A DNA stretch of 64,000 bases from Halobaculum sp. MBLA0147 (lineage in GTDB: Archaea > Halobacteriota > Halobacteria > Halobacteriales > Haloferacaceae). The position numbers and the translations under genes are program-made. Under the pieces are notes generated by a model. The model was not told where the DNA came from. It did no database searches and worked only from the letters and a program-made list of their open reading frames with translations. Positions 15,645 through 19,505 of this stretch are shown here, piece after piece (within the stretch, counting starts at the first letter, position 1; every line of letters starts with the position of its first letter). The DNA is taken from positions 2,728,001 to 2,792,000 of the forward strand of contig NZ_JBGKAD010000001.1 of the NCBI RefSeq assembly GCF_041361345.1, read 5' to 3'.

Positions 15645-15717
15645 GGGCGGCTAGTTCAGCGGACAGAACACTTGGTTCCGGACCAAGGGGTCGGGGGTTC
15701 GAATCCCTCGCCGCCCG
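15645..15717 (+). tRNA. tRNA-Arg (anticodon CCG)
   Basis: A complete cloverleaf can be folded by hand. The acceptor stem gggcggc pairs with gccgccc, followed by discriminator g. The anticodon stem cttgg/ccaag encloses the loop ttccgga, with anticodon ccg at its centre (reads CGG). The T arm is ggggg-ttcgaat-ccctc with one G-U pair. There is no intron and CCA is not encoded. The 3' half of this tRNA is repeated about 130 bases downstream. Confidence 0.95.
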
Positions 15718-15720
15718 TAC

Positions 15721-15906
15721 AGCGAGTTCTCGAACGGAGTGAGAGACCGAGCGCACCGGCACGAGGATTCGAACCCTGCCAGTCGCAGCGGCCGAGTGGA
15801 ACGAGGCCGACCGTCTGGCTCCGGTTCGAATCCCTCGCCGCCCGTTGCGAGGTTCGAGCGAAGCGAGAACCTCGGCTGGCGAGTGGAGAACAGAGTGACC
15901 CGCGAC
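15721..15906. repeat. tRNA-Arg-derived 3' repeat and inverted T-arm fragments
   Basis: The last 23 bases of the tRNA (15696-15718) recur exactly at 15823-15845. Just before, an opposite-strand T-arm-like string (aggattcgaaccc at 15772-15784) makes an inverted repeat with it. The string cagcgagttctcgaacg, which follows the tRNA at 15720, recurs near 15952 and, with one change, near 16840. This looks like the debris left at a tRNA attachment site. No integrase gene is visible in the window. Confidence 0.75.
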
Positions 15907-16035
15907 CCCGTGGAACGAGCCCGCGAGCGCCGCGGGCGGGCGAGTGACCTGCAGCGAGTTCTCGAACGCTTCGTGGTACGAGTGGTCCCTTCAGTTCGCG
16001 GCCGTCGGTCTCTGCTCGTGCCGAACCACTGGTGA

Positions 16036-16458
16036 TCAGCTGTACTCGTCTCCAACTATCGACCCACTGAACAGGCTTCCTAGGAGGAACAAGAACGAGG
16101 TCCGGACTGCGTACCGTGCGGGGAGCGTCTCCCAGACAGTCGTCACAGCGGTGTACATCACGAACAGGCCCGGAACGCCGATCGCCACCAGGAAGACGAC
16201 GGAGCCCAGTGCGACGACGGGGTTGGCGATTCCAATCACGATCAGAAAGATGAGGAGACGGAGCGCGATGAGCCCGACGGCGAAGAGTGTGACACCGAAC
16301 GCGATCTCGATAGTGTTCATCGACGGCTGAGGTACCCAGTCGACCCCCGTGCTCGCCACCCCCACTGCGAGAACGATGTTTGCGAGGAAGGCTACAATCA
16401 CAGAAAACCACTTGATCGAACTCCGTGCTGTATCGGCCTTTGTCGCCGAGTTTTGCAT
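16036..16458 (-). CDS. Four-helix membrane protein, duplicated copy A
   Basis: A 140-residue protein with four hydrophobic stretches: about 17-38 (FSVIVAFLANIVLAVGVAS), 49-64, 68-85 and 86-105. WETLPARYAVRTSFLFLLGS follows as a conserved amphipathic C-terminal part. It is roughly 65-70 percent identical by eye to the gene 883 bases downstream. The best conserved parts are PQPSMNT, TVWETLPA.YAVRTSFLFLLGSLFSG and VAFLAN. No family recognised. Upstream sequence is AT-rich (gcaaaaactcctttc), giving a plausible promoter. Confidence 0.75.
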   Translation of the reverse strand: MQNSATKADTARSSIKWFSVIVAFLANIVLAVGVASTGVDWVPQPSMNTIEIAFGVTLFAVGLIALRLLIFLIVIGIANPVVALGSVVFLVAIGVPGLFVMYTAVTTVWETLPARYAVRTSFLFLLGSLFSGSIVGDEYS

Positions 16459-16918
16459 GGTGATCGGAGCGTAGAATCAGAAGCAAAAACTCCTTTCGAA
16501 TTGTGAAATCTGTCACTGTCTCGCCAAGTAATGTAACACAGCCCAGAATCATCTCCAGGGACACGAACTAAGCGCTCGACTCTGGACAGTCGTCCAGACA
16601 GGCGTGGACGAATCGCCGCCGACCCCAGTGCGTGACGTGTAGAGACTACCCTCGGCCGCAGTACGCCGACTCACGCGCCAGGGTCGGACGGAAGGTGTGT
16701 CTCGTCGCCCGGTGCCGTGGCCCTCGGAGTGGGACACGAAACACGAGCGGAACGAGAACTACGGACGACGACAGCCAACGCGCAGGCTCGCGAGCCCGTG
16801 GAACGAGCCCGCGAGCGCCACAATCGGGTGGGTGAGCGGCAGCGAGTTCTCGGACGTGTGGGGTCCGAGTCGCTGATCACTGTCTTCTATCTCTCTATTC
16901 GTCCAGAACCGTTGGTGG

Positions 16919-17341
16919 TCAGGTGTTCCCGTCCCCTGCCAGTGTCCCACTGAACAGGCTTCCCAGCAGGAACAGGAACGACGTCCGGACGGCGTACTGT
17001 GCTGGGAGTGTCTCCCAGACGGTCGACGCGGCGGTGTACAACACGAACAGACTCGGAACTACGACGACCCCGAACACGGCTGTCAAGGCCAGTCCGGCCA
17101 CTGGATTGGCCGTTCCGACCACGAACAGGAGAACGAGGAGGCGGAGTACGAACAGTCCCAGGGCGAAGAGTAGGACGCCGAACGCGAGCTCGACCGTGTT
17201 CATCGACGGCTGCGGCACCAAGTCGACCACCGTGCTCGCCACCCCGACTGCGAGCACGAGGTTCGCGAGGAATGCCACGATGAGGGAGAGGCTCTTCAAC
17301 ATATCCCGTACGACATCGCCCTCCGTCGTCGACTTCGACAT
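16919..17341 (-). CDS. Four-helix membrane protein, duplicated copy B
   Basis: A 140-residue paralogue of the preceding gene, with the same length and the same four-helix plan. It starts MSKSTTEGDVVRDMLKSLS where copy A has MQNSATKADTARSSIKWFS, so the N-terminal 15 residues diverge while the helices and the C-terminal WETLPAQYAVRTSFLFLLGS are kept. Two intact copies without frameshifts suggest both are under selection or the duplication is not old. The upstream gap contains ttaaatttcttttgaaat about 30 bases before the start, a strong candidate promoter. Confidence 0.75.
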   Translation of the reverse strand: MSKSTTEGDVVRDMLKSLSLIVAFLANLVLAVGVASTVVDLVPQPSMNTVELAFGVLLFALGLFVLRLLVLLFVVGTANPVAGLALTAVFGVVVVPSLFVLYTAASTVWETLPAQYAVRTSFLFLLGSLFSGTLAGDGNT

Positions 17342-17600
17342 GGCGTCTGGTAACTTGATACAGTCATTAAATTTCTTTTGAAATACACAAAGCGGCCGTC
17401 TTGTCGTCTAGTAATTCGTCGACAGAGTGGAATCTTCTCTGGAAACCCGGTTCCAAGTCGACAGAGGACGGTCGTCCAGACGGCCGCACGGACGGATTGC
17501 CGTCGAGCGTTGTGCGAGACGTGCGGAGACTCTCCCCGATCACAGTAGGTCGATCTTCGCTCCACGACTCCGACGGGGGGTCTGTCTCGCGGCTCAGTAC

Positions 17601-17877
17601 GGCGACTCTTCGAGTGAGAGACGGAATTCGAGCGAGTCGAGACCCGTAGACGGCGACGGGAGGTAGTGTTCAGACAAGGCCGAATCGTCGGGTGTGACCA
17701 CCACTCGGGAAGCGGCGCCCGAACCCGCCCCGTACAGCATCTCACTCCCACCCTCGTCGCTTGCTCTGCTCACTCCTCTCTCGCGAGTCTCTCGCGCGGC
17801 ATCCACAGCTGTCGGTTCGTTCGAACCCAACCTGGCAAGAGGCCAACGGACTCACAAATCTGGAACCGATCCGTCGC
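17601..17877. other. Gene-free stretch before the lanthionine-synthetase remnant
   Basis: No frame here shows coding character. The sequence carries no long repeat and no recognisable RNA. It separates the duplicated unit from the pseudogene. Confidence 0.5.
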
Positions 17878-18240
17878 TCACTCGACCGCGAGCAGACGGG
17901 GTAACTCCGTCGGCCGTGCGATCCGACAGAGGGTGTAGGCGACGCCGGCGAGGCCGTCGTACAGCGTCGGGTTCGGGTACGCCTCGTCGCGTCCGAGTAG
18001 TCGGACGGCACTGTCTCCCGAGGGTGTGGGACTACGCGACCCCCGAGATCGGCCGCCGTAGCCCGACCAACGGCGCCGATTCCCACCTCTGTGTCGACGA
18101 GCAGCGTCTCGACTCCCCGAGCGTCCCACGACAGAGGTGGTCGGTGTGTGCCGTCCCGCTGGCGGCGACCGCCTCGCGCCGACTGTACTCGTCGGCGACC
18201 CACGTCCGGTTCTCGAAGACCACCGCGTCGCGAGCGTCGC
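17878..18240 (-). pseudogene. Frameshifted C-terminal remnant of a LanM/LanC-like lanthionine synthetase
   Basis: Three consecutive pieces of one LanC-type cyclase domain appear in three different minus-strand frames. First, DHLCRGTLG (about 18115-18142) matches the zinc-site CHG/CCG segment. Second, VETLLVDTEVGIGAVGRA lies just downstream in another frame. Third, LLGRDEAYPNPTLYDGLAG and VAYTLCRIARPTELP run to a natural stop at 17878 in a third frame. The last matches the family's C-terminal NP-x-LF-x-GLAGVGYTLLR pattern. At least two frameshifts are required, and the N-terminal dehydratase part is gone. The first zinc Cys-His segment was not found. The intact enzyme would make class II lanthipeptides. 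No precursor peptide gene or protease/transporter is nearby. Confidence 0.65.
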
Positions 18241-18477
18241 CACGCCGGCACGGCGCACCGTGTCGAACTGGCGGCCTCTTTCGGGGGCTGTCCGCCTCCG
18301 GCTCGGGACCGTACCCGGTCCCGCTCGGTCCGGTCGTGCCGGTGCCGAGCGACACCGACACAGTCGGCACGACAACACGTCTGTCTGCGAGAGATCCACG
18401 CTCGACTCGCTGGAACCGGACCGCGAGCCGATGTACCTCCACCTACGAGAGACTGGGTTCCAGTCGGCTCCGGCCGG

Positions 18478-18493
18478 GGTTAACACGTTAACC
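18478..18493. promoter_or_regulatory. Inverted repeat upstream of the Tat esterase gene
   Basis: ggttaac-ac-gttaacc is a perfect 7-base inverted repeat with a 2-base centre, 40 bases before the ATG at 18534. The following gaactatgttgtac is the TATA-like part. The position suggests an operator or upstream activator site. Confidence 0.45.
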
Positions 18494-18533
18494 GAGTGAA
18501 CTATGTTGTACAGCGAGTGTGGTGAGACACCGC

Positions 18534-19505
18534 ATGCGTAGACGAGACGTACTTCAGACGCTGGGGACGGCGGTGACGGCGACGACAGTCGGCACACTCC
18601 CGACGACGGCGGCGGAGGGTACCTACACAGACGAGTACTACGACGGACTCCACTACACGAAGTACGTCCCGTCCGGGGCCAGCGGCGGCGAACCGCTCCT
18701 CGTGATGCTCCACGGCTGTTCGCAGGAGCCGGACGAGTTCGCGGCGGCGACGGGGATGAACGACGTGGCCGAGCGGGAGAACGCGGTCGTGGTGTACCCG
18801 GACCAGTCGTCGTTCGCGAACGGCTTCGACTGCTGGAACTGGTACTACGACTACAACACGGCTCGCGGCAGCGGCGAGGGGGCGTCGATCACGAACGTCG
18901 CCCTGCGTGCGGTCGACCGGGAGTCGCTCGACCGCGACCGGATCTACCTCGCGGGCTTCTCGGCGGGTGCGGCGATGGTCCCGAACCTGCTGGCCTCCTA
19001 CGCCGACGTGTACGCCGCCGGTGGGGTCCACTCCGGGCTGGAGTACGACGCCGCCGAGACGGCGACCGGTGCGACGGGGGTGATGGCGTTCGGCGGGCCG
19101 AACCCGTACGACCAGGGCGAGCAGGCGTACCGGTCGATGGTCGACGACGAGATCGTCGATCGCGTGCCGACGGTCGTGGTCCACGGCACGGACGACGACA
19201 CCGTCGACGTGGTGAACGGCGACCAGGTGCGCACACAGGCGGTGGAGACGAACGACCTCGTCGACGGCGCCGACGACGAGAGCGTGAACACGGAGCCGGA
19301 CGACCGCGTGTACGACTCCGAGGGTGGGTACGACTACCGCCGAGACAGGTACACGGACAGTCGGGGGCGCGTGAACGTCGAGTACTGGCTGGTCGAGGGG
19401 ATGGGCCACGAGTGGGCCGGTGGCGACACCGGCGAGTACGTCGCTCCCGACGCGCCGTCGGCCAGCGACGCCCTGTGGTCGTTCTTCGAGCGCTGGTCGC
19501 TGTAG
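18534..19505 (+). CDS. Tat-exported PHB-depolymerase-family esterase
   Basis: A 323-residue protein. ATG 18534 gives MRRRDVLQTLGTAV, a twin-arginine signal, with processing likely after TTAAEG near residue 29; a GTG at 18519 would add five residues. The alpha/beta hydrolase is of the PHB depolymerase/LpqC type. It shows the early LLVMLHGCSQEPDEFA with its oxyanion region, nucleophile Ser143 in GFSAGAA, Asp in HGTDDDTVDV and His in GMGHEWAGGD. CWNWYY is also typical of the esterase_PHB family. It probably acts outside the cell on polyester or acylated polysaccharide; the exact substrate is unknown. Confidence 0.9.
   Translation: MRRRDVLQTLGTAVTATTVGTLPTTAAEGTYTDEYYDGLHYTKYVPSGASGGEPLLVMLHGCSQEPDEFAAATGMNDVAERENAVVVYPDQSSFANGFDCWNWYYDYNTARGSGEGASITNVALRAVDRESLDRDRIYLAGFSAGAAMVPNLLASYADVYAAGGVHSGLEYDAAETATGATGVMAFGGPNPYDQGEQAYRSMVDDEIVDRVPTVVVHGTDDDTVDVVNGDQVRTQAVETNDLVDGADDESVNTEPDDRVYDSEGGYDYRRDRYTDSRGRVNVEYWLVEGMGHEWAGGDTGEYVAPDAPSASDALWSFFERWSL

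Follow-up and report, generated by a model that had tools for sequence, protein, structure and literature searches.

Probable 3' remnant of a dead class II lanthipeptide synthetase gene between a tRNA-Arg and an esterase gene in Halobaculum sp. MBLA0147

The stretch between the tRNA-Arg and esterase genes

The window, by which we mean the whole stretch of 64,000 nt analysed here, covers positions 2728001-2792000 of contig C1 in the genome of Halobaculum sp. MBLA0147 (G000; 4.29 Mb in 6 contigs, 97.43% complete). It contains a variable seam between a tRNA-Arg(CCG) gene and the gene of an esterase that served as syntenic anchor. Lying in this seam are two genes for 140-aa membrane proteins, a dispersed repeat and, next to the esterase, a minus-strand piece that resembles the end of a lanthipeptide synthetase gene (LanM; Table 1). 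The membrane-protein genes are part of a tandem duplication of ~883 bp at 15901-17486, marked by direct repeats D1-D3 at a spacing of 883-888. For the 140-aa protein four helices were predicted, with a pLDDT of 62.6 and a pTM of 0.41 from an input of two sequences only.

The locus was compared with those of three congeneric genomes, G001, G002 and G003. The order of genes is tRNA-Arg, methyltransferase, esterase in G001 and tRNA-Lys, methyltransferase, esterase in G002, the methyltransferase being read from the sequence by eye; its nearest relative in G000 lies on contig C2 and is 68% identical. In G003 other genes stand upstream of the esterase, including an ORF judged by eye to be cupin-like, and neither LanM nor methyltransferase was found at the corresponding place, as far as could be told. 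An earlier reading, made from the letters of the window alone (the sequence-only reading), had proposed to look for an intact lanthipeptide cluster at the syntenic site of relatives; in G001 and G002 that site holds the methyltransferase instead. Against the LanM profile introduced below, the corresponding stretches of these two genomes scored 42.0 or less, which is the null range. For the DNA upstream of the esterase in G003 the score was 55.2, with an alignment that overlapped the cupin-like ORF out of frame, and this score was read as chance. The interval 15720-18500 is not common in its present form to the three congeners compared, and the locus has been rearranged.

In three of the four genomes of the genus, a second copy of the tRNA-Arg(CCG) 3' end follows shortly past the gene (window 15696-15718 and 15823-15845; L036:8040-8061; L038:7093-7115) and is like a left-over attachment site. 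Because G002 and G003 likewise carry it behind this tRNA, the copy is either older than the arrival of the LanM-like piece or not tied to it. The dispersed repeat is a mosaic of two conserved blocks whose spacing and orientation vary (window 17650-17835; L170-L177); matching pieces number 53 in G000, 13 in G001, 3 in G002 and 0 in G003.

Table 1. Features of the seam in the window and two-gene synthetase loci in other haloarchaeal genomes
Feature	Position	Strand	Remarks
tRNA-Arg (CCG), left edge of seam	15645..15717	+	ARAGORN
Exact 23-nt second copy of tRNA 3' end, attachment-site-like	15823..15845	+	direct repeat D9
140-aa orphan membrane protein, copy 1	16036..16458	-	in ~883-bp tandem duplication
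140-aa orphan membrane protein, copy 2	16919..17341	-	64% identical to copy 1; hydrophobic helices
Dispersed mosaic non-coding repeat, directly downstream of LanM remnant	17650..17835	.	underlies much of 78-aa ORF 17594-17830
Probable LanM (class II lanthipeptide synthetase) C-terminal remnant, detectable extent	17878..18166	-	spans two to three reading frames; frameshift-aware alignment with the profile runs from 18166 to 17881
NPTLYDGLAGVAYTLCRIARPTELPRLLAVE, last 31 residues of LanM, frame intact to stop	17881..17973	-	PF05147 match; 17/31 identical to four intact LanMs
VETLLVDTEVG, probable continuation past frame change, weak alone	18081..18113	-	placed by profile alignment
DHLCRGTLG, remnant of D-x-x-C-C-G zinc motif, second Cys replaced by Arg	18116..18142	-	
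PHB-depolymerase-type esterase, right edge of seam	18519..19505	+	PF10503 E 1.7e-39; orthologues in L034, L035, L037
Split synthetase, G002	L041:6507-9758	-	
Split synthetase, G002	L043:4514-7713	+	
Split synthetase, G003	L045:10860-14251	-	
Split synthetase, G003	L046:1900-5087	-	
Split synthetase, G003	L047:4526-7683	+	
Split synthetase, G243	L178:2956-6125	-	LANC_like search of class genomes plus tblastn

Alignment of the minus strand with LanM C-termini

In a frameshift-aware alignment the minus strand from ~18166 to 17878 matched the ~94 C-terminal residues of haloarchaeal LanM synthetases of the fused type. Three LanC-domain pieces, collinear on the minus strand and in three frames, had been reported by the sequence-only reading, and an all-frame reading of 17800-18620 recovered every one of them in its place and in LanM order: HLCRGTLG at 18139-18116, VETLLVDTEVG at 18113-18081, and the stretch from NPTLYDG at 17973 to LLAVE at 17881, directly followed by a stop codon at 17878-17880. 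Two of these are firm anchors, namely DHLCRGTLG (18142-18116) and the 31-residue C-terminus with its stop codon (17973-17878). The latter carries the C-terminal signature NPxFxGxxGxxY ... LPxxLLxE, with Y replacing the usual second F. On its own this last piece matched Pfam LANC_like (PF05147) at profile positions 318-349 of 350 with E = 0.00096 and 18.3 bits, below the gathering score of 23.2 bits; in a search of the whole genome the E-value was 0.033.

Significance was assessed with a protein-to-DNA alignment that allows frameshifts and was written for this analysis, the null being equal-length pieces of the window. Such an alignment had been proposed as the check on the sequence-only reading. 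When the profile was built from the C-termini of 24 fused haloarchaeal LanMs, leaving out L044 and L160 (long branches) and L180 (N-terminally truncated), the piece scored 153.9, compared with a mean of 33.9, a standard deviation of 4.2 and a maximum of 50.1 for 406 other window pieces from both strands. An earlier profile of 14 LanMs gave 128.0 against a mean of 34.6 and a maximum of 52.3 for 298 equal-length window pieces. The spacing of the anchors agrees as well. From the D of DHLC to the P of NPTLYDG there are 172 nt (57.3 codons), as against 55-63 residues in 11 of 14 homologs, the other three giving no value since both motifs were not caught by the pattern; from that P to the end there are 30 codons, as against 29-37 in homologs. 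A distance that is not a whole number of codons is what a frame change between the anchors leaves behind.

The middle piece VETLLVDTEVG stands in the right place, and its support from the sequence is weak. Taken alone it was equalled by 133 of 414 nulls, and within the full alignment 38, 19, 39 and 0 of 400 shuffles reached the observed score for the four references used. Upstream of ~18166 the profile alignment found no significant LanM homology (457 of 620 nulls as high). An alignment with the LanM at locus L069 could be drawn as far as 18252, but its upstream part was at background (29 of 410 nulls, and 457 of 620), and homology beyond ~18166 was rejected. As an observation on the sequence, the presence of broken lanthionine synthetase pieces is confirmed.

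What remains is a piece of ~290 nt, compared with about 1020-1240 residues in intact LanM relatives. The anchors lie in different frames, so that no uninterrupted LanM reading frame runs through them, and the frame shifts at least once in net terms, twice in the best alignment. The LanC domain is incomplete, as the Pfam match covers only its very end and the profile alignment reaches only ~18166. A second dehydratase domain (DUF4135/PF13575) was not found in the genome, the sole match (C1:2001334-2002641) being part of an intact LanM. In LanC enzymes the cysteines of the WC and CC motifs bind zinc. All 24 fused haloarchaeal LanMs compared have the D, C, C and G of the zinc motif, whereas the piece reads D-x-x-C-R-G; the region of the WC motif, which like the CC motif was present in 24 of 24, had no significant match in it. 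The broken frame, the lack of a dehydratase domain, the truncated LanC domain and the replaced zinc cysteine together led us to judge the gene dead, and by its sequence it is an inactive pseudogene. We put at roughly nine in ten the probability that 17878-18166 is what remains, without function, of the 3' end of a fused haloarchaeal LanM gene cut at the tRNA-flanked seam. The suggestion that this was a decayed LanM/LanC gene is borne out in that its closest alignments are with intact haloarchaeal LanMs.

Origin of the remnant and its neighbours

The same genome encodes an intact LanM of 1215 residues with both domains at about C1:2.00 Mb. The remnant scored 138 against L069, from Halobacteriales archaeon QS_1_68_20, and 114 against this resident LanM, and it is therefore not a recent copy of the latter. 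No close intact donor was found: L069 was the best single match, and among 30 intact sequences at most 17 of the last 31 residues were identical. An acquired or ancestral LanM may have been cut during rearrangement of the tRNA-flanked seam; a deletion reaching to the esterase promoter would then have removed most of the gene, and the remaining stub would have drifted since without function.

The ancestor could instead have been a free-standing cyclase, like those of the split class II synthetases in G002 and G003, or a member of another LanC family. Split cyclases occur in the same genus and only cyclase sequence remains here; furthermore, NCBIfam LanM and LanKC were both weak on the last piece (E 0.032 and 0.068). 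A profile of split cyclases, however, scored 87.4 with only the C-terminus aligned, against 153.9 for the fused profile, and DHLC-R is closer to the fused DHLCCG than to the split D-x-(L/V)CHG. This origin is unlikely.

Slightly less probable still is that the remnant belonged to a lanthipeptide cluster whose immunity or export functions were supplied by the duplicated membrane proteins, as the sequence-only reading had considered possible for an ancestral cluster. The remnant and the membrane genes are adjacent on the same strand, and the latter look constrained, with a point estimate of 0.39 for dN/dS between the copies. Against this stands the absence of any relative of the 140-aa proteins from 147 other genomes of the family (148 with the window's own), from GTDB representative contigs, IMG/VR viral contigs and PHROGs, and, by tblastn, from the LanM-bearing loci fetched, where L002, L014, L054 and L055 were set aside as carrying the window's own copies. 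NCBIfam gave no meaningful family, with only E 0.12 and 0.18, and Pfam likewise none. Precursor-like ORFs were at background level, one in 15720-18510 compared with a mean of 0.9 and a maximum of 3 in 63 control pieces under a crude Cys/Ser/Thr/Gly-Gly filter, and the dispersed repeat stands between the membrane genes and the remnant. The supposed cluster thus found no support, and the 140-aa proteins cannot at present be called immunity genes; they would be unrelated neighbours, kept as a tandem duplication. It is just as doubtful that the remnant is a trace of a large pool of exchangeable lanthipeptide synthetases turning over in the genus and that the constrained orphan duplicates are self-protection genes which outlived their synthetase.

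Frame changes are typical long-read errors, and a base-calling error could account for the one seen here in a LanM that is intact, or was until recently. Such an error would leave the missing gene body unexplained: at most ~353 nt separate 18166 from the esterase ORF at 18519, too little for ~1000 residues, nothing LanM-like was detectable between these positions, and the zinc cysteine is substituted. We regard a sequencing or assembly artefact as highly improbable. That chance produced LanC-like strings from GC-rich DNA read in wrong frames can be dismissed with near certainty, being ruled out by the null distributions of both profiles: long spurious ORFs are common in haloarchaeal DNA, short pieces alone are within reach (DHLC without the C-terminal piece was matched by 13 of 408 nulls) and the control upstream of the G003 esterase exceeded all 298 equal-length nulls (maximum 50.1), but the 153.9 of the full piece lies far above the maximum of its 406 nulls and comes with the correct order, spacing and stop position.

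LanM stubs and two-gene synthetases in other haloarchaea

PMC10105419 and PMC12144867 establish class II lanthipeptides and their LanMs in Haloarchaea, in agreement with the earlier statement that these organisms encode such synthetases. The LanMs described there (PF13575 plus PF05147; for example in Haloferax and Halorussus) share with the remnant the C-terminal ~94 residues, the order of motifs, their spacing and the position of the stop; the remnant differs in having no dehydratase domain, no full LanC domain, a broken frame and a replaced zinc cysteine. A few truncated LanMs are mentioned in PMC10105419, and by this description they resemble the remnant as incomplete haloarchaeal LanMs; the remnant is ~290 nt long and frame-broken.

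LANC_like genes over the cut-off were found in 4 of 4 genomes of the genus, in 9 of 148 sampled from the family and in 29 of 391 sampled from the class. Within the genus the number of LANC_like loci above the family cut-off was one to four per genome, besides fragments. In a group so rich in genes of this kind, the remnant is nothing unusual. N-terminally truncated LanMs were also observed in two other haloarchaeal genomes, G329 (L179:3232-3753, minus strand) and G182 (L180:3857-5329, plus strand), with a C-terminal remainder of about 174 and about 490 residues, respectively. As in the remnant, only the C-terminal part is left; unlike it, these stubs are longer and keep one frame over ~174 and ~490 codons. 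Since both are truncated at the N-terminus as well, loss of the front part of LanM has left stubs more than once.

In six loci the class II synthetase is encoded by two genes, a DUF4135 dehydratase followed by a LANC_like cyclase (Table 1); the loci come from three haloarchaeal genomes that belong to two families. A protein of ~650-670 residues is followed by a cyclase of ~400 residues. In five loci the first ATG of the cyclase gene and the stop of the preceding gene overlap by 1 or 4 nt, and in L041 this ATG comes 7 nt past the stop. Pfam DUF4135 was present in the first protein of all five loci scanned (L041, L043, L045, L046 and L047) and Pfam LANC_like in the second protein of both scanned (L041 and L043), while the LANC_like assignment of L045-L047 comes from the genome search. 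In a tree of 35 rows the six split cyclases grouped together with support of 91/87, and 94% of the 200 bootstrap trees recovered the group. Shuffling the labels 500 times gave an equally low value in 45 cases, so the clustering is only modestly tested. Eight of the 21 class loci failed the motif filter for this tree (L146, L153, L155-L159 and L161), with L178, which covers more of that locus, taking the place of L153. L049-L052 and L070, which are duplicates or close relatives of other rows, were omitted. The proteins of L049-L053 are cut by the ends of their loci. In the literature searched, of which coverage was partial, no description of such a split synthetase was found.

Taken alone, the remnant matters little: it illustrates cleanly how a synthetase can be lost, in organisms already known for class II lanthipeptides. 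The clade of two-gene class II synthetases is the more useful by-product. Frameshift-aware searching detects LanM remnants that profile searches leave under threshold, and could assist in tracing where these pathways were gained and lost.
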